In this document: positions 500 to 8,790 of the stretch, in pieces | Position numbering within the stretch: the stretch's first letter is position 1 | Layout of the letters: every line of letters begins with the position of its first letter | Made by a program: the position numbers and the translations under genes | NCBI RefSeq assembly: GCF_039534915.1 | Contig: NZ_BAAAWE010000001.1 | Coordinates: forward strand, 558,001-622,000 | Source of the DNA: Streptomyces roseofulvus | GTDB lineage: Bacteria > Actinomycetota > Actinomycetes > Streptomycetales > Streptomycetaceae | Direction of reading: 5' to 3' | Length of the DNA: 64,000 bases | The notes under the pieces: generated by a model | What the model saw: the letters and a program-made list of their open reading frames with translations, nothing else | The model's database searches: none | What the model was told of the DNA's origin: nothing

Positions 500-1468
500 T
501 CAGTCGGTGACGAGGGCGCGGGCGAGGCTCCGGTAGAACGCGGTCACCCCGGGTTCCTTCGGGGAGAGGTGGCCGCGCTCCGCGAAACGGGACCCCACCA
601 CCCGCTGCACCGCCTCCAGCCCGAGACGGTCCTCCCGGTTGACCACCGCGGCGCCCTCCTCGTTCTGCTCGCGGAGCGCGTCGCGGTCCTGGCCTTCCAG
701 GGCGGACGGGTGCATGAGCACTCCGCCCCGGACCTCGACGCGGTCGATGGTCAGCGGGGTCATGGTGATCCAGACGACGGAGTCGCCGAAGGCCGCCAGG
801 CTGCCGCACGGGAAGACGGCGCAGTTGTACATGGTGGCCCGCTGTTCGGCGGAGAGCGGGAGCGCCGTGGCCGCGAGGGGTTCGCGGAACGGGCTGAGGA
901 GCCGGGTGACCCACGGCGACTCGGTGCGCACCTCCATGGCGCCGCCCGGCGGGGTGATCAGTGCCACGGTGGTGGGGTGCAGTCCCATGGCGTGGTAGTT
1001 CTCGTGGGCGTTCTGGACCGCGATCTTCCAGTTGCACCGCCATTCCTCGGTCCAGCCGGCGATCGGCGTCATCTCCGGCAGCCGGTAGGCGTCGAGTTCC
1101 TCGCCGATCCGCCGCAGGTGCGGTCCCAGCGGCTCGGCGTCCGGGTCGGGATTGACGAAGACGAATCCCCGCCACTCCTCCACGGCGGGCGCCGGACGGT
1201 GGCCGCCCGGCGCGGAACGCGCGCGCAGCGCCCCGTCCGCGCCCCGGGACACGGTGACGGTCCGGCCGGCGGGCGAGACCGTCAAGGAGCGCCCGGGCAC
1301 GTCGAGTTCGGAGGCGTGACCGGCCAGCAGCCAGGAGCGTCCGAAGACGCGCTCCCGCTCGGCCCGCCACAGCTCGGTGGAGGTGAAGGCCGCCGGGGAG
1401 AGGCTCAGCTCGGGTGCGTCCGGTTCCAGGTACCCCGCCAGCTCCGCCAGTAGCTCCGTGAGCGTCAT
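500..1468 (-). CDS. Rieske-oxygenase paralogue lacking the [2Fe-2S] Rieske motif
   Basis: This 322-aa protein aligns along its length with the intact Rieske oxygenase at 6851-7990: shared AAFTS.LW..ERERVFGRSW near the N-terminus, VEEW.GFVFVN, GPHLRRIGE, and ERGHLSPKEPGV near the C-terminus. The catalytic-domain iron ligands survive in NAHENYHAMGLH (His159, His164). About 50 residues that should hold the C-x-H...C-x2-H cluster ligands are missing: after residue 85 the chain passes through a short Gly/Pro stretch straight to VEEW at 96, with no frameshift. Alone it could not take electrons through a Rieske centre. It may pair with the intact paralogue, bind substrate, or use its iron differently. 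The ATG overlaps the stop of the upstream glycosyltransferase (ATGA). Confidence 0.85.
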   Translation of the reverse strand: MTLTELLAELAGYLEPDAPELSLSPAAFTSTELWRAERERVFGRSWLLAGHASELDVPGRSLTVSPAGRTVTVSRGADGALRARSAPGGHRPAPAVEEWRGFVFVNPDPDAEPLGPHLRRIGEELDAYRLPEMTPIAGWTEEWRCNWKIAVQNAHENYHAMGLHPTTVALITPPGGAMEVRTESPWVTRLLSPFREPLAATALPLSAEQRATMYNCAVFPCGSLAAFGDSVVWITMTPLTIDRVEVRGGVLMHPSALEGQDRDALREQNEEGAAVVNREDRLGLEAVQRVVGSRFAERGHLSPKEPGVTAFYRSLARALVTD

Positions 1469-2754
1469 GCTCCTCGCCGTTCCTTTCCGTAGCGGGCCGT
1501 GAGCCGCTCGATCTCGGCGACGGCCTCGTGGGGTGTCGGCATCTCCTCGATCTCCCGCCGCAGGCGCCGCGCGTTCGCCGTGAACGACGGCTCGGCCAGC
1601 ACGCGCGCGACCTTCTCCCGGAAGCGGTCGGCGGTGAAGTCGCGCAGCGGCAGGGACAGGAGGTTGCCCTGCTTCTCGTAGGCGACGCCCATGGACTCGG
1701 TGACCCACTCCCAGCCGGTGAGCAGGACCTGGGGAACGCCGTGGAACTCGGCGGTGGCCTTGGTCTGGTAGCCGCCGTGGTGCACGACCGCCGCGCAGGT
1801 CGGCAGCAGGTCGTGCATCGGCACGTGGTCCACGACCCGCACGGTGTCCGGGAGCGGCGGCAGGTGGGCGCGCTGCCGCGCGGAGAGGGCCGCGACCACC
1901 TCCACGTCCAGCTCGCCGAGCGCGCCCAGCATGCCGGTGAGGACCGTGTCGAGGTCCCAGAGGCCGTAGCCGCTGTCGATGCTCACCCCCAGGGTCAGAC
2001 AGACCCGGGGCCGGAGCGGGGGTTCGCGGAGCCAACGGGGGACGACCGAGCGCCCGTTGTACGGGATGTAGCGGGCCGGGACCGTCGGGACGCCCAGGTC
2101 CTCGCGGAGGCTCGCCGGCCGGGTGTCGACGGTCCACTGGCCGGTGAGCACGGACTCGTCGAACCGGGCCCCGGCGCCGAGGCGTTCCAGCGTCCAGTCC
2201 AGCCACTCCGCCGTGGGGTCCTCGCGGTGCTCGGGCTCCTGCTCGGCGGCGAGGCGCAGGAAGGCCCGACGGGTGCCCAGTTGCATGGCCAGCTCGGGCC
2301 CGGAGACCAGACGGGCGTGGGCCGCGCCCACGGTGAGCGCCGCGACCGGGCCGGCCAGGCAGAGCGTCTCCCAGAGGACGAGGTCGGGCCGCCAGTGCCG
2401 GGCGAAGGCCACCACCTCGTCGATCAACGTGTCGGAGTTCAGGCGCGAGTTGAGGGCGGGGACGATGACGCTCTCGTAGCCGAGCTGCTCCTCCCAGGTC
2501 TCCTCCCGGTCCGGTTCCCGGTCCTGGTCGGCGGTGCCGAAGTGGGCGATGGCCTCCTGGTGGAAGGCGTCCAGCGCCTCGTACCACGGCGGGCTCTCCA
2601 GCGGGACGGCGGTGATCCCGGACCGGGTGACGGTCTCCACCACGCCGGGGACGCAGGCGGCCCGCACCTCGTGGCCGGCGGTGCGCAGCGCCCAGGCCAG
2701 CGGGGCGAGCAGCTGGAAGTGGCTGCCCTCCAGCGAGGTCAACAGAACCTTCAT
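1465..2754 (-). CDS. EryCIII/DesVII-like glycosyltransferase, activator-dependent type
   Basis: The 429-aa GT-B enzyme resembles macrolide glycosyltransferases that move a TDP-dimethylamino sugar onto an aglycone. The N-terminal acceptor domain begins MKVLLTSLEGSHFQ, a YNGRSVVP.WL segment lies near 232-242, and the nucleotide-binding motif VVHHGGYQT is at 324-331. DesVII/EryCIII enzymes need a P450-like partner; that partner is encoded immediately upstream (2751-3851) with an ATGA overlap, so the two are translationally coupled. Where many relatives have Ser-Gly-Thr after HHGG, this protein has Tyr-Gln-Thr. Acceptor and exact sugar cannot be read from the sequence. Cytosolic. Confidence 0.85.
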   Translation of the reverse strand: MKVLLTSLEGSHFQLLAPLAWALRTAGHEVRAACVPGVVETVTRSGITAVPLESPPWYEALDAFHQEAIAHFGTADQDREPDREETWEEQLGYESVIVPALNSRLNSDTLIDEVVAFARHWRPDLVLWETLCLAGPVAALTVGAAHARLVSGPELAMQLGTRRAFLRLAAEQEPEHREDPTAEWLDWTLERLGAGARFDESVLTGQWTVDTRPASLREDLGVPTVPARYIPYNGRSVVPRWLREPPLRPRVCLTLGVSIDSGYGLWDLDTVLTGMLGALGELDVEVVAALSARQRAHLPPLPDTVRVVDHVPMHDLLPTCAAVVHHGGYQTKATAEFHGVPQVLLTGWEWVTESMGVAYEKQGNLLSLPLRDFTADRFREKVARVLAEPSFTANARRLRREIEEMPTPHEAVAEIERLTARYGKERRGA

Positions 2755-3851
2755 CGGGCTTCTCCTCCGCCGGCCCCGGGGGCGACCGCCGCGGGGAACG
2801 CGGTGGCCCTCGGGGGGTCCTGGGGGGTGGTCGTCCCGGCGGACCCGCTGTCGGCCGTCGGGCTGGTCGGGACCGTGACCCGGGCGCGGGCCGGGCCTCG
2901 GGTGAGCGGGGCTCTGGGGCGGCGTACCACGGGGGCGGCGGGACGGAGCCGGGCGTCACGGTCCGCGAGTGCCGTGAGCGCGGTCTCGACCAGGGCCCGG
3001 TGGAACGGGGCCAGTGCGCGGTGGGCGGGGGCCGTCGCCGCCCCCGGCCCGCCGTCGTGCACGATCGCGAGCCGCTCGCCCGCGGCGATCCGGGCTCCGC
3101 CCGTCTCCACGTCGGTGCGGGCCACCAGGGGCACGATCCAGCCGGGCGGTTCCGCGCGCAGGGCCGCCGCGGCCGTCGGCCCGGCTTCGTGGGCCGCCAG
3201 CGGGAGCCGGGCCCGCAGCACGGTCCGGGCGACGAGGTCGGCGCCGGTGCGGGCGGCGACGACCACGGTCGCCGGTCCCGGCGCGCCGGGCGGAGCGCCC
3301 GCGAGGAGGGTCCGCAGCTCGTCGAGGCCCGTCCGCAGGCGCCTGGTGGTGGCGAGCCGCTGCGGGCACACGATCGCGTCCTGGGCGACGCCGCAGGCGG
3401 CGAGGGCCTCGGAGAACCGGCCGAGCTCGTCCTCCGGGATTCCGCACACGTCGGCGAGGGCGCCCGCCGCCAGCGGCTCGGCCACCTCGGTGACCAGGTC
3501 GAACTCGGACCCCGCCGCGTCGAGCAGTCGGGCGCAGAGGGCGTCGAGCGCCGTCGGCACCCGTACGTCCGCCACGGCGGCCTCCCCCGGCAGGACCGTC
3601 ACGGGCCCGATGCCCGGGTGGGCGAGCAGCGCGGCGGCCGTGGCCGGGTCCGCGGTGACCCAGGACCCGGCGCCGGAGCGCCACAGCGGCCCGGCCGCCA
3701 GGACGCGTTCGCGCAGCGGCCCCGCGTCCTCGTCGATGTCGCAGAGCAGGGCGGCGTACGGATCGCCCTTGAGCCGGTGCAGCCACAGCGTCCCGTGCTC
3801 GCGCTGCAACCGCTCCCCCAGCTCCGCCGGCTCCACGGGCTCCGTGGTCAC
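2751..3851 (-). CDS. EryCII/DesVIII-like P450-derived glycosyltransferase activator
   Basis: The 366-aa protein has the N-terminal pattern of EryCII/DesVIII: ELGERLQ, then KGDPYAALL, then a WVTADP segment. It also has the family's C-terminal tail, PVVRRPRAPLTRGP. These are cytochrome P450 relatives without heme that stabilise and activate the partner glycosyltransferase. Consistent with that, I find no FGxGxHxCxG cysteine loop and the K-helix ExxR is degenerate. The middle region is short for a P450. The start is a GTG overlapping the PhyH stop (GTGA), and the stop overlaps the glycosyltransferase ATG. A Pro/Ala-rich tail of about 35 residues is atypical and could reflect the true end lying elsewhere. 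Confidence 0.85.
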   Translation of the reverse strand: MTTEPVEPAELGERLQREHGTLWLHRLKGDPYAALLCDIDEDAGPLRERVLAAGPLWRSGAGSWVTADPATAAALLAHPGIGPVTVLPGEAAVADVRVPTALDALCARLLDAAGSEFDLVTEVAEPLAAGALADVCGIPEDELGRFSEALAACGVAQDAIVCPQRLATTRRLRTGLDELRTLLAGAPPGAPGPATVVVAARTGADLVARTVLRARLPLAAHEAGPTAAAALRAEPPGWIVPLVARTDVETGGARIAAGERLAIVHDGGPGAATAPAHRALAPFHRALVETALTALADRDARLRPAAPVVRRPRAPLTRGPARARVTVPTSPTADSGSAGTTTPQDPPRATAFPAAVAPGAGGGEAR

Positions 3852-4657
3852 GGGGTGGCGCCGGGGCCGGCGGCGATCAGGGGGAACCGGTCTCCGTCGA
3901 CGGGCGCGCCGGGCGCGAGGTGGGCCACCGGATGGTCCTGGACGCCGGGCCGGTAGGTGGCGTCGGAGTCCATGTAGACGGAGGCGAAGGCGAGCCGGCG
4001 TTCGCCGTCGGTGTTGGCCCCGGCCATGTGCACGGTGCGGAAGTCGTGGAAGACCACGTCCCCGGCGCGCATGGGGACCGCCACGCGGGGGCTGAACGGG
4101 AAGTCGGGCCAGATCTCCTCCATCGGCCGGTAGTCCTGGAACCCGGCGAGATGGACCTGGCGGTGCGCGAGGGGCCGCCGGTGGGATCCCGGCACGTAGA
4201 TCAGGCATCCCCGGTCGGCGGGCACGTCCACCAGGGGGATCCACGCCGTCAGGGTGCGGGTCAGCCCGGCGAGCGGGAGACCCGGCTCGTCGTCGTGGAC
4301 CACGGTGGGCAGGTGCACGTCGGGCTCCTTCTTGAGCACGTCGGTGCCGTAGAGCCGCAGCGGCCCGCCGGCGAGGTGCTCGGCGGCCCGGGTGACGACG
4401 GGGTGCAGGGCCAGACGTCGCAGGTCGGGGTGTTTGCGCCAGGCCGCCTCGACGTAGTGGACCTGGGTCTCGTCCGCGGAGGCGCCCCAGATCTCCGGGC
4501 CCTCCTCGGCGAGGAGCTTCTCGGCGGCCGCCCGGAACCCGGCGACCTCCTCCGGGGACAGCACCGACCGGAGGTGGACGAAGCCCTGGTCGTGGAAGCG
4601 GTGGAGGACCTCCTGGGTCGGCAGGCCGCTCTCCGTCAGATCGGGGGTGGTCAGCAT
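3848..4657 (-). CDS. Phytanoyl-CoA dioxygenase (PhyH) family Fe(II)/2-oxoglutarate oxygenase
   Basis: The 269-aa protein has the facial triad of PhyH enzymes: His121 and Asp123 in VVHDDEP, and distal His210 in FRTVHMAG, followed by an Arg (R220/R221) suited to bind 2-oxoglutarate. Such enzymes hydroxylate, epoxidise or cyclise small molecules in many biosynthetic clusters. I placed the start at the ATG at 4657, which has AGGAAAGG upstream; an in-frame ATG at 4714 overlaps the previous gene and lacks family sequence. It lies in the same leftward run as the glycosyltransferases, so a tailoring role on aglycone or sugar is likely. Substrate unknown. Confidence 0.85.
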   Translation of the reverse strand: MLTTPDLTESGLPTQEVLHRFHDQGFVHLRSVLSPEEVAGFRAAAEKLLAEEGPEIWGASADETQVHYVEAAWRKHPDLRRLALHPVVTRAAEHLAGGPLRLYGTDVLKKEPDVHLPTVVHDDEPGLPLAGLTRTLTAWIPLVDVPADRGCLIYVPGSHRRPLAHRQVHLAGFQDYRPMEEIWPDFPFSPRVAVPMRAGDVVFHDFRTVHMAGANTDGERRLAFASVYMDSDATYRPGVQDHPVAHLAPGAPVDGDRFPLIAAGPGATP

Positions 4658-4710
4658 GTGATCGCCTTTCCTGGTCGGAGGGGAGGGCGTGGGAGGGCTG
4701 GGGAGGGCGT

Positions 4711-5859
4711 TCATCCGAGGGTCTCGACGAGCCCGGCCACCGTCTCGGCCGGCGTGGGCATCGCCAACAGCTCGTCACGGACCTGACGGGCGTGGTCGCG
4801 GAGGCGCTCGTCCTTCAGGAGCGCCCGGCACTCGGCGGCGCCGAGCGTGCTGGGCTCCGCCACGATCCCGATGCCCCGGGCGGGCAGCAGGTCGGCCCCC
4901 GTCTGCTGGTAGGAGCCGCGCGGGATGACGCACTGCGGGAGCCCGGCGGCGGCGGCCGTGAGCATGGTCCCGCTGCCGCCGTGGTGGATGATCGCGGTGC
5001 AGGTGTCGAGGAGCAGATCGAGCGGGGCCCAGTCGACCAGCCGGACGTTGGGCGGTACGTCGGCCAGCAGGGCGGGGTCTCCGCCGCCGAGGGTGACCAC
5101 GAACTCGGCGTCCAGGCCCCGGGCCGCCTCCATGAGCGGGCGCAGGATCGCGAGGCCGCCCCACTGGGCCTCGATGGTGCCGAGGGTGACGGCGACGCGC
5201 GGCAGCCGGGGCGCTTCCGCGAGCCAGCCGGGGAGCACGGCCCCGCCGTTGAAGGGCAGCGGGCGCATCGGCCGGGCCCCGGGGGTCCGGCGGTCGTCGG
5301 GGAGGAGGGCGGTGAGGCTCGGCGGGAGGGTGGTGAGCGGGATCGTCGCCGGGGGTTCGCCGGTGACGCCGTGCCGGGCCCAGTGGGGTTCCATCCCGGC
5401 GCGGAGCAGGGCGCGGAGCCGTGCGCCGCTGTCGTACGACCCCAGGCGGGGCTCGATGAGGGGCGCGCCGACCGCGGCGGCGAGGAGCCGGCCGGCTCCC
5501 TGGAGGGGCGGTGCGACCACCAGGTCGGGGGGCCAGTCCCGGGCCGCCGCCAGGGCACCGTCCACCATGACCCCGGAGACCCGGGCGAAGAGCGTGGCCA
5601 GCTCGGCGTCGTCGGGGTCCTCGGCGAACATCGGATGGTCCGCCGGACCGTCGGTCCCGGGCTCCTGGGGGACGTAGACGGGCAGGTAGTCCAGGCCGGG
5701 GGTGACGTCCACGACGTCGAAGCCGGCGTCGGCGACGCCGAGGCTGAGGCCGCCGGTGGCGTACCGGACCCGGTGGCCGGCGGCGCGGAAGGCCTGGGCG
5801 AGGGGGACGGTCGGGAAGAGATGGCCGAGGCCGGGAGAGGTCACGAACAGGACGCGCAT
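4711..5859 (-). CDS. Second GT-B glycosyltransferase of the cluster
   Basis: The 382-aa product starts MRVLFVTSPGLGHLFPTVPLA, with the catalytic-type His13 of family 1 glycosyltransferases. It has PLPFNGGAVLPGWL near 200 and the donor-binding HHGGSGT motif at 292-298, followed by a Q...GADLLPARG segment. It is typical of antibiotic glycosyltransferases that use TDP-deoxysugars. It differs clearly from the EryCIII-like enzyme at 1465-2754 and has no own activator gene, so the final molecule probably carries at least two sugar units. The gene is followed after 53 bases by the PhyH gene on the same strand. Confidence 0.85.
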   Translation of the reverse strand: MRVLFVTSPGLGHLFPTVPLAQAFRAAGHRVRYATGGLSLGVADAGFDVVDVTPGLDYLPVYVPQEPGTDGPADHPMFAEDPDDAELATLFARVSGVMVDGALAAARDWPPDLVVAPPLQGAGRLLAAAVGAPLIEPRLGSYDSGARLRALLRAGMEPHWARHGVTGEPPATIPLTTLPPSLTALLPDDRRTPGARPMRPLPFNGGAVLPGWLAEAPRLPRVAVTLGTIEAQWGGLAILRPLMEAARGLDAEFVVTLGGGDPALLADVPPNVRLVDWAPLDLLLDTCTAIIHHGGSGTMLTAAAAGLPQCVIPRGSYQQTGADLLPARGIGIVAEPSTLGAAECRALLKDERLRDHARQVRDELLAMPTPAETVAGLVETLG

Positions 5860-5974: not shown

Positions 5975-6688
5975 TCACGGGGCGGTTCCGAGGAAGAGAC
6001 CCCGGCCGGAGTGCGGACCGGGAACGTACTCGACGGTGAGGCCGGCGGCCCGGAAGGCGGCCTCGTAGGCCGATCGGGTGAAGAGGGAGATGCGGTGGGT
6101 CTCGGTGAAGTGCCGGGCGCCCGCGTGGGCGTCGGCCACCACGTAGTGGACGTCCATCCGGCAGGCCTCCCCCTCGCGCGCGGAGTGCGAGACCCGGGCC
6201 ACGGTGCGTCCCGCCACCGTGGTCACGTCCGCCGAGACGTACCCGTCGAGGTACGTCTCGGGAAACCACCAGGGGTCCACGGCCACCACTCCGCCCGGCG
6301 TCAGGTGCCGGGCGAAGGCGGCCAGGGTGGCGTGGAGTTCGGCCTCCTCGGTCGCGTAGCCGAGGGACCCGAACATGCAGGTGACCACGTCGAACCGGAC
6401 GCCCAGGTCGAAGGCCCGCATGTCGCCGACGTGCACGGGTACGTCCGGCAGCGCGCGGCGCGCCGCCCGCACCATGGGCTCGGACAGTTCGAGGCCGGCC
6501 ACCGCGTCGAAGTGCCCGGCGAAGTGGCGCAGGTGTGCTCCGGTGCCGCAGGCCACGTCGAGGAGGGAACGGGCGTCGGGCCGCAGACGGCGCACGCGCC
6601 GGGTCAGCTCGCGCGCCTCGGCCCCGTAGTCCTTGCCTCGGCTCTCGTGGATCAGGTCGTGGATCTCGGTGAGTTCAGCGCCGTACAT
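5975..6688 (-). CDS. dTDP-3-amino-deoxyhexose N,N-dimethyltransferase (TylM1/DesVI-like)
   Basis: The 237-aa protein matches the TylM1/DesVI family almost end to end: MYGAELTEIHDL, then RGKDYGAEA, the SAM-binding LLDVACGTGAHL (42-53), GLELSEPMV, VDPWWFPETYLDGYVSADV, VARVSHSAREG and GPSGRGLF-like end SGRGLFLGTAP. These enzymes dimethylate the amino group of TDP-3-amino (or 4-amino) deoxysugars such as mycaminose or desosamine. This is the strongest clue that the cluster product bears a dimethylamino sugar. I set the start at ATG 6688 by family alignment; an ATG at 6759 would add 24 residues of unrelated sequence. It is transcribed divergently from the intact Rieske gene. Confidence 0.9.
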   Translation of the reverse strand: MYGAELTEIHDLIHESRGKDYGAEARELTRRVRRLRPDARSLLDVACGTGAHLRHFAGHFDAVAGLELSEPMVRAARRALPDVPVHVGDMRAFDLGVRFDVVTCMFGSLGYATEEAELHATLAAFARHLTPGGVVAVDPWWFPETYLDGYVSADVTTVAGRTVARVSHSAREGEACRMDVHYVVADAHAGARHFTETHRISLFTRSAYEAAFRAAGLTVEYVPGPHSGRGLFLGTAP

Positions 6689-6850: not shown

Positions 6851-7990
6851 GTGGACGTCGGGGAGATCCTGGAGGAGCTGGGGCGGTATCTGGGGCCGGA
6901 CGCCGAGGAGTTGAGCCTGCCGCCGGCGGCGTTCACCTCGTCCGCGTTGTGGGAGGTGGAGCGGGAGCGGGTGTTCGGACGTTCCTGGGTCCTGGTGGCG
7001 CACGCCGACGAACTGACGGAGACCGGGGCGTACGTGGCGCTGTCGGTCGCGGGCGAGCCGGTCGTGGTGGTCCGGGGCGAGGACGGGGTCCTGCGCGGGA
7101 TGTCGCCGGTGTGCCGGCACCGGCTGATGCCGGTGGTGGAGGAGGGTTCGGGCCGCACGGACGTGTTCACCTGCCCGTACCACCTGTGGCGGTACGGGCT
7201 GGACGGCCGGCTCGTGGGCGCCACCTACATGAAGCGGAACCCGGCGTTCGATCCGTCGGCGTGCCGGCTGCCGCGGTTCGCGGTGGAGGAGTGGCACGGA
7301 TTCGTCTTCGTCAACCTGGACGCCTCGGCCGAGCCGCTGGGCCCCCACCTGAGGCGGATCGGCGAGGACCTGGCCCACTACCGCCTGCCGGAGCTGACCC
7401 AGGTCGCGGGCTGGACGGAGGAGTGGCACTGCAACTGGAAGGTCGCGGTCGAGAACGCCCACGAGAACTACCACGTCATGGGCTTCCACCCGGAGACCCT
7501 GCACCCGACCACGCCCGGCGGCGCGGAGACGACGGTCCGGGCGGACTCGCCCTGGGCCGACAGCATGAGGGTCCGGTACGCGACGCCGCTGGAGCCCGGC
7601 GTCCTGGACCTCACGGAGGAGGAACGGGCGCATCTGTACGGCTTCTTCGTCTTCCCCTCGGGCAGCCTCGCCGCCTCGGGCGACATGGTGATCTGGCTCA
7701 GCCTCGTCCCGACGGCCCTCGACCGCACCACGGTCCGCGGCGGCATCCTGATGCCCCCCGCCATGATCGAGGGGCAGGACCGGGACGCCGTACGGAAGGA
7801 GGCCGAGGCCTACGCCGCCGTCATCAACGGTGAGGACCGCCGGGGCCTGGAGGCGGTCCAGCGCGGCGCCGCCTCCCGCTTCGCCGAGCGGGGCCACCTC
7901 TCCCCCAAGGAGCCCGGCGTCCTCCTCTTCTACCGGTCCCTGGCCCGCGCCCTGCTGAGCGAGGACGCCGACTGGCCCGGCGCCCTCTGA
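6851..7990 (+). CDS. Rieske non-heme iron oxygenase, alpha subunit type
   Basis: The 379-aa protein has a full Rieske cluster motif, C88-R-H90, a 17-residue gap, then C108-P-Y-H111. The mononuclear iron motif is NAHENYHVMGFH (His208, His213). It would use electrons from a ferredoxin/reductase for mono- or dioxygenation, demethylation or ring formation; no reductase gene is nearby. The start is GTG 6851, placed by GGAGGG upstream and by alignment with the paralogue at 500-1468 (MTLTELLAELAGYL against MDVGEILEELGRYL). It is the only rightward gene among the cluster's tailoring genes and ends at a strong hairpin. Confidence 0.9.
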   Translation: MDVGEILEELGRYLGPDAEELSLPPAAFTSSALWEVERERVFGRSWVLVAHADELTETGAYVALSVAGEPVVVVRGEDGVLRGMSPVCRHRLMPVVEEGSGRTDVFTCPYHLWRYGLDGRLVGATYMKRNPAFDPSACRLPRFAVEEWHGFVFVNLDASAEPLGPHLRRIGEDLAHYRLPELTQVAGWTEEWHCNWKVAVENAHENYHVMGFHPETLHPTTPGGAETTVRADSPWADSMRVRYATPLEPGVLDLTEEERAHLYGFFVFPSGSLAASGDMVIWLSLVPTALDRTTVRGGILMPPAMIEGQDRDAVRKEAEAYAAVINGEDRRGLEAVQRGAASRFAERGHLSPKEPGVLLFYRSLARALLSEDADWPGAL

Positions 7991-8160: not shown

Positions 8161-8790
8161 ATGGACACCACGACCGACACCACGCCGCTGCGCGCCGTCG
8201 CGCTGGTCTGCACCCTGTCCCCGTCGCCGAAGCGGTCGAGCGCTCAGCTGCTGGCCGAACAGACCATGGCCGCCCTCGGTGATCACGGCGTCACCGGAGA
8301 GGTGATCCGGATCGCCGACCACGACGTCAAACCGGGCGTCCAGACCGACATGGGCGACGGGGACGCCTGGCCGCAGATCCGCGACACGCTCCTGCGCTCC
8401 GACATCCTGGTCCTCTCCACCCCCATCTGGCTCGGCCACCCCTCCAGCCACGCCCAGCGCGTCCTGGAGCGCCTCGACGCAGAGCTGGGCGAGAGCGACG
8501 ACGAGGGCCGCATGCTCACCTACGGCAAGGCGGCGGCCGTGTGCGTCGTCGGCAACGAGGACGGCGCCCACCACGTCAGCGCCGAACTCTTCCAGGGCCT
8601 CAACGACGTCGGGTTCTCCCTCGCACCGAACGCCGTCACCTACTGGGTCGGCGAAGCCATGCAGGGCACCGACTACCAGGACCTCGACGAGACCCCCGAG
8701 AAGACCGCCGCGACGACCAGGACCCTCGCCGCGAACACCGCGCACCTCGCGCGCCGTCTCAAGGCCGCCCCCTACCCGCCCTCATCCTGA
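8161..8790 (+). CDS. Flavodoxin-like NAD(P)H-dependent FMN reductase family protein
   Basis: This 209-aa product has the flavodoxin-like fold of NADPH-dependent FMN reductases: a first strand AVALVCTLSPSPKRSSAQLLAE with a phosphate-binding loop rich in Ser, then LRSDILVLSTPIWLGHPSSHAQRVLERL, and AAAVCVVGNEDGAHHVSAEL. These proteins bind FMN and reduce quinones, flavin or azo compounds. It is followed after 38 bases by the SDR gene on the same strand, so the two may be co-transcribed. Specific substrate unknown. Confidence 0.8.
   Translation: MDTTTDTTPLRAVALVCTLSPSPKRSSAQLLAEQTMAALGDHGVTGEVIRIADHDVKPGVQTDMGDGDAWPQIRDTLLRSDILVLSTPIWLGHPSSHAQRVLERLDAELGESDDEGRMLTYGKAAAVCVVGNEDGAHHVSAELFQGLNDVGFSLAPNAVTYWVGEAMQGTDYQDLDETPEKTAATTRTLAANTAHLARRLKAAPYPPSS

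Follow-up and report, generated by a model that had tools for sequence, protein, structure and literature searches.

The 64,000-nucleotide stretch of Streptomyces roseofulvus DNA analysed here (contig NZ_BAAAWE010000001.1, positions 558,001 to 622,000; hereafter "the window") encodes two paralogous Rieske oxygenase subunits. One of them, RL, has lost the [2Fe-2S] cluster-binding region and kept the residues of the mononuclear iron site; the other, its partner P, is intact (Table 1). In the reading we favour, and consider probable, RL is a catalytic subunit of a mixed ring with P, is supplied with electrons by the P cluster, and oxidises a sugar. A preliminary description of RL, made from the sequence without database searches, had put forward three roles: membership of a hetero-oligomer in which electrons come from the partner, a substrate-binding pseudo-subunit, or a non-redox use of the fold.

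BLASTP and Pfam bore out the starting observation of that description, namely that RL aligns with P over nearly its full length, is without the cluster ligands and keeps H159-x4-H164. The two proteins share 53% identity (E = 1e-129), with 49 gap positions across the C-x-H...C-x2-H region. The replacement had been given as about 50 residues by about 13, in frame; it is indeed in frame, but 59 residues of P (86-144), including C88, H90, C108 and H111, stand opposite ten of RL, a net loss of 49. Judged by the alignment, what RL has lost is the part of the Rieske domain that binds the cluster. Pfam finds PF00355 (1.3e-18) and PF00848 on P, and only PF00848 (8.8e-22) on RL, so that of the two alpha subunits P has a Rieske [2Fe-2S] domain and RL does not. 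RL and P account for both of the PF00848 matches in the whole source genome, which was assembled as a single contig of 8.2 Mb.

The catalytic fold of RL, recognised by Pfam, was also recovered in its AlphaFold model, which superposes on the quaternary-ammonium Rieske oxygenase 3vca over residues 1-322 (Z 27.1, root-mean-square deviation 3.4, 302 aligned); the first Foldseek match is stachydrine demethylase 4qup. The model keeps the outer Rieske strands (47-51, 61-64, 71-75, 81-85, 95-99 and 102-106), matching strands of P, and the elements that P has between residues 99 and 138 are absent from it. Predicted local distance difference test (pLDDT) scores of five RL models ran from 80.5 down to 49.0, and their fine detail is unsure. 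The stop codon of RL lies at 500-502 and its start is probably the ATG at 1466-1468, in a 4-bp overlap with the stop of the glycosyltransferase gene upstream; the frame is open beyond this ATG (open reading frame 500-2959), but most orthologues start at the equivalent place. A chance reading frame was rejected by the identity to P and the Pfam match.

The predicted iron site of RL is complete. By sequence the closest solved relative of RL is CntA, and in its register H159, H164 and D280 of RL correspond to H208, H213 and D323, which would supply the 2-His-1-carboxylate ligands, while E156 corresponds to E205 and would be the bridging carboxylate. N153, E156, Y158, H159, H164, D280 and Q288 are identical in all 25 rows of an alignment of eight RL proteins, eight partners, eight single intact proteins and one outgroup.

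To place RL among its relatives, we scanned a genome collection with it and obtained 12 loci: six orthologues of near-equal length (L006-L011), one relative that is intact (L012) and five oxygenases only distantly related (L013-L017). Alignment A1 served as query against whole genomes at a cut-off of E 1e-70, which leaves more distant members uncounted, and detected the family in 10 of 392 genomes of the genus, 3 of 394 of the class, 5 of 394 of the window's own family, 5 of 250 of the family of genome G613 and 2 of 65 of the genus of genome G932; these sets overlap. Profile search or tblastn had first identified the genomes; the genes were then located by the iron motif or a C-terminal motif, and no profile match was seen to be left over. 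Altogether, 17 distinct genomes carry the family. Eight have RL and P (the window, L006-L011 and L034), eight have one intact gene (L035, L036, L037, L038/L012, L049, L051, L052 and L056), and in G932 both genes are cut by contig ends; duplicates were counted once (L050 = L010, L055 = L009, L038 = L012). Separately, the two G932 paralogues (L053:10249-10891 and L054:11288-11879) are identical over 127 bp that cover the iron motif and end both contigs. Either gene conversion took place recently or a repeat was collapsed; when the DNA of G932 was searched, only these two contig ends came up.

In all eight RL genomes the intact partner lies 4-6 kb from RL, and RL without P was seen in none of the 17 genomes. 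The same stretch is missing from all eight RL genes (that of L010 is one residue shorter still), and C-x-H and C-x2-H are retained in the eight partners and the eight singles. The preliminary description had reasoned that orthologues with the same deletion, always beside an intact paralogue, would speak for a real paired function, and this is the pattern found. It had also named two outcomes that would overturn it: orthologues that all keep both motifs were not encountered, though one syntenic relative in a partnerless cluster (L049, discussed below) keeps both, and an assembly deletion as the origin of RL was rejected, the same deletion occurring in eight distinct genomes. The pairing nonetheless fits equally well with the main rival to a mixed ring, in which RL is a non-catalytic pseudo-subunit that stabilises P, tunes its activity or holds substrate, and oxidises nothing. 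Dead-paralogue activators are known elsewhere, an example being the prozyme of S-adenosylmethionine decarboxylase (PMC5201418), and the cluster itself holds a P450-derived activator-like gene (TIGR04515, below cut-off), an oxygenase fold reused as a helper. We regard this rival as unlikely, for all eight RL genes retain the three iron ligands as well as the bridging Glu, and two further kinds of evidence, from selection and from the presumed substrate pocket, point the same way.

The ratio of non-synonymous to synonymous substitution rates (dN/dS, median of pairwise values, 28 pairs per group) varies along the two proteins. The catalytic region (residue 131 on) has a ratio of 0.20 in RL and 0.155 in P, residues 1-45 have 0.39 and 0.33, and what is left of the Rieske scaffold (46-91) has 0.58 in RL versus 0.24 in P. 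Invariant columns, which are not independent of one another, tell the same story: 11 of 46 in the RL scaffold versus 30 of 46 in that of P (Fisher p = 1.3e-4), and 111 versus 129 of 192 in the catalytic region (p = 0.07). On the strength of these contrasts, selection maintains RL as an iron protein but has relaxed on its Rieske part. A pseudo-subunit would sit well with the faster evolution of RL as compared with P, but less well with a catalytic domain constrained nearly as strongly as P's. The relaxed scaffold might be read as the mark of a decaying duplicate, or of an assembly or sequencing artefact; yet with the catalytic region at 0.20, and one deletion shared by eight genomes whose open frames extend to named Streptomyces, Kitasatospora and Actinomadura records, we hold that reading to be very improbable and largely refuted.

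Phylogenetic trees, built without the deletion columns, related the RL genes to the intact ones. The first tree was rooted on L013, an outgroup far removed from the family, and its deep branching is weak; the second left out L013 and the long-branched L052. Neither the 25-row alignment nor either tree includes the two partial G932 proteins or the distant L014-L017 (23-37% identity). Because the eight RL genes form one clade (support 99/92 in the outgroup tree, 94/91 in the second), the Rieske loss probably happened once; and as this clade lies inside the P/RL family, the possibility that RL is a fragment of an unrelated Rieske oxygenase was rejected. RL, L049 and L051 make up one side of a branch supported at 95/95 in the second tree, and placement of L049 with P was rejected (approximately unbiased test, p-AU = 5.5e-5).

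L049, from genome G613, occupies the RL position, in the order SnogD-like, SnoK-like (PhyH), GT1, Rieske, dTDP-glucose dehydratase, in a cluster with ketosynthase-like genes. It resembles RL in locus, in cluster type and in its side of the tree, but unlike RL its protein retains C-x-H and C-x2-H and it has no partner gene: the approximately 58 kb around it holds only that family gene, and no second family member was found in its genome, where the next best match is 5.3e-30 at 37% identity. No other cluster genes were seen near L051 (19.5 kb examined) or L052 (12.4 kb), and L049 is the single case in the syntenic comparison. In short, the sole clear syntenic partnerless relative kept its cluster and the partnered ones lost theirs. 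The 19 fixed residue differences between RL and P also involve L049. Sixteen of them fall within residues 152-230, beside or after the iron motif, where the substrate pocket is expected, and at the 19 positions L049 agrees with RL in 12 and with P in 6. This suggests that RL inherited an active pocket of its own and speaks against a subunit that oxidises nothing, although the agreement may reflect kinship only. As a separate feature, the protein encoded at L049:9458-10615 (-) has a series of DAGS repeats at its N-terminus, which none of the other family members compared shows.

Among the three roles proposed at the outset, the hetero-oligomer fed by its partner is thus the best supported, if indirectly, by the constant pairing, the invariant iron site and Glu, purifying selection and L049; a non-redox use is less likely, as RL keeps its iron ligands and its bridging residue alike.

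The structure of CntA suggests how a chain without a cluster could work. According to the CntA report (PMC7948474), the enzyme is a head-to-tail trimer in which the Rieske centre lies 44 Å from the iron of its own chain and 12.2 Å from that across the interface, and every E205 mutant that was made lacked activity. Given these distances and the inactive mutants, a chain's own cluster in a CntA-type ring would serve its neighbour and not its own iron; and since electrons cross between subunits in CntA, loss of its own cluster need not disable the iron of RL. By the same analogy, the earlier statement that ordinary Rieske oxygenases need both sites would hold for each ring and not for each chain.

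By this model, RL and P would assemble head to tail in a trimeric ring, electrons would pass from the [2Fe-2S] cluster of a neighbouring P across the interface and through Glu156 to the mononuclear iron of RL, and that iron would then oxidise, probably hydroxylate, a sugar on an anthracycline of the nogalamycin type. If the ring were P2-RL, its two clusters would be divided between P and RL, one feeding each. RL and P would oxidise different positions or different sugars. More tentatively, the mixed ring may be obligate, a partnership of two paralogous alpha subunits, only one with a cluster, whose iron sites perform different oxidations on the same antibiotic; one chain could then have shed its Rieske domain because, in a head-to-tail ring, the cluster it carried never served its own iron.

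Alternatively, a catalytic RL could draw its electrons from somewhere other than P: a free Rieske ferredoxin, a reductase domain, or a peroxide shunt of the kind reported for CntA (PMC7948474). The closest precedent for RL, NdmC of the caffeine N7-demethylase NdmCDE, is of this type, being a non-heme iron oxygenase subunit that has no Rieske cluster and is thought to use one fused to the reductase NdmD (PMC4408171). RL shares the missing cluster, and the genome has seven further PF00355 places, on Rieske proteins with other catalytic domains. The precedent parts from RL in where the cluster went. In NdmC it moved onto the reductase, whereas no reductase with an extra Rieske domain is encoded alongside RL: near the locus PF00355 matches the intact paralogous alpha subunit P and nothing else, and the next match lies some 0.5 Mb off, at 1,072,356. 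The pathways differ as well, caffeine demethylation in one case and antibiotic biosynthesis in the other. With RL seen without P in none of the 17 genomes, we think an outside electron source improbable.

While these facts favour a mixed ring, several others weigh against it, beginning with the additional PF00355 places just mentioned. Both the RL-P complex and turnover by RL are predicted, and the conserved E and H residues of RL could be kept for folding. RL evolves faster than P overall (dN/dS 0.31 vs 0.16) and in residues 92-130 (0.40 vs 0.26), and single pairs go as high as 1.19 in residues 1-45. The RL model has pLDDT below 50 in segment 160-169, which includes His164. L049 is a long branch; its group with RL and L051 has support of 92/63 in the outgroup tree, and a grouping of RL with L049 alone was neither shown nor rejected (p-AU = 0.11). 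Because the Rieske loss seems to have been single, the contrast between partnered and partnerless genes is one evolutionary event and carries no statistic. Finally, the gene in the RL position of G932 is cut by the contig end before the Rieske region and decides nothing.

Among known systems, CntA is the best sequence relative, with the same iron ligands and bridging Glu (PDB 6y8j), and it and related quaternary-ammonium oxygenases (PDB 6y8j, 3vca) are among the best fold relatives. Unlike RL and P, however, CntA is a homotrimer with a cluster in every chain. The NdmA/NdmB heterocomplex of caffeine degradation is reportedly a 3:3 assembly of two paralogous Rieske oxygenase alpha subunits; it is said to differ from RL and P in that both chains carry their own cluster. 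SnoT, described as a single intact Rieske enzyme that hydroxylates L-rhodosamine at 2'' in nogalamycin biosynthesis, belongs to the same kind of cluster as RL and P, one with SnoK- and SnogD-like genes, and is their likely relative.

In titles and abstract openings of the open-access literature, among the matches listed, we found no Rieske-less subunit in an anthracycline cluster and no case of donation by a paralogous intact alpha subunit, nor did the latter appear in the available part of a 2025 review (PMC12445004). Such donation would be a new variant of Rieske-less oxygenase beside NdmC. If it occurs, the natural pair with one cluster-less chain would be a clean and genetically separable test of inter-chain electron transfer, since donor and acceptor lie on different genes and can be mutated separately. 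It would further illustrate how an enzyme ring divides labour once a subunit has been duplicated, and would reveal which tailoring steps go into anthracyclines of the nogalamycin type.

Table 1. Coordinates in the window of RL, P and the genes between them.
Feature	Position	Strand	Remarks
RL, Rieske-less oxygenase subunit	500..1468	-	322 aa; open reading frame, Pfam, BLASTP
Third iron ligand, RL Asp280	629..631	-	Predicted, register of CntA Asp323; invariant in 25/25 rows
N-x2-E-x-Y-H-x4-H, RL residues 153-164	977..1012	-	Predicted bridging Glu156 and iron ligands His159 and His164; invariant; CntA register
Deletion junction	1184..1213	-	RL residues 86-95 opposite P residues 86-144
GT1, EryCIII-like glycosyltransferase	1465..2754	-	Directly upstream of RL; adjoins RL in other loci too
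P450-derived glycosyltransferase activator-like gene	2751..3851	-	TIGR04515, 218.8 bits, below cut-off 343
SnoK-like Fe/2-oxoglutarate oxygenase (PhyH)	3848..4714	-	PDB 5epa SnoK, E 6e-98
GT2, SnogD-like glycosyltransferase	4711..5859	-	PDB 4amb SnogD, E 1.9e-128
S-adenosylmethionine methyltransferase	5975..6688	-	Divergent from P; start inferred from first ATG of conserved part
P, intact partner Rieske oxygenase	6851..7990	+	379 aa; open reading frame, Pfam
P [2Fe-2S] ligands C-x-H...C-x2-H, residues 88-111	7112..7183	+	Region missing from RL
P bridging Glu205, iron ligands His208 and His213, residues 202-213	7454..7489	+	Alignment

The genes around RL and P indicate the kind of product on which they might act. 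Two of the neighbours resemble SnoK and SnogD, which belong to nogalamycin biosynthesis. Upstream of the window lie nitrososynthase-like and AknOx-like genes (L004:2503-3840 (+) and L004:4954-6774 (-)), and the matches of the neighbours include aclacinomycin oxidoreductase AknOx (1.2e-160), DnmZ (1.5e-138) and nitrososynthase (1.5e-136). Ketosynthase-like genes were recognised by eye upstream, in L005; gene calls in L004 and L005 are rough, some being probably antisense, and were used for synteny only. From its gene content, the cluster looks like a nogalamycin-type anthracycline cluster, and because of the nitrososynthase-like and AknOx-like genes its product perhaps carries a nitro sugar. 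No second SnoK/SnoN-like gene was found in L004 or L005 beyond a 28-residue match (E 0.23), and the activator-like gene has no match listed in the otherwise syntenic Actinomadura locus L010. The flavin mononucleotide (FMN) reductase gene at 8161-8790 of the window was considered as a cognate redox partner and rejected, with no match listed in the other loci at E 1e-15. A MycE-like methyltransferase gene (L004:11445-12644 (+)) is matched in L006-L011 and, since it also occurs near the singles L012/L038, L056 and L049, is not specific to the RL/P pair; as a speculation, its product could have as target a hydroxyl that one of the oxygenases introduces.
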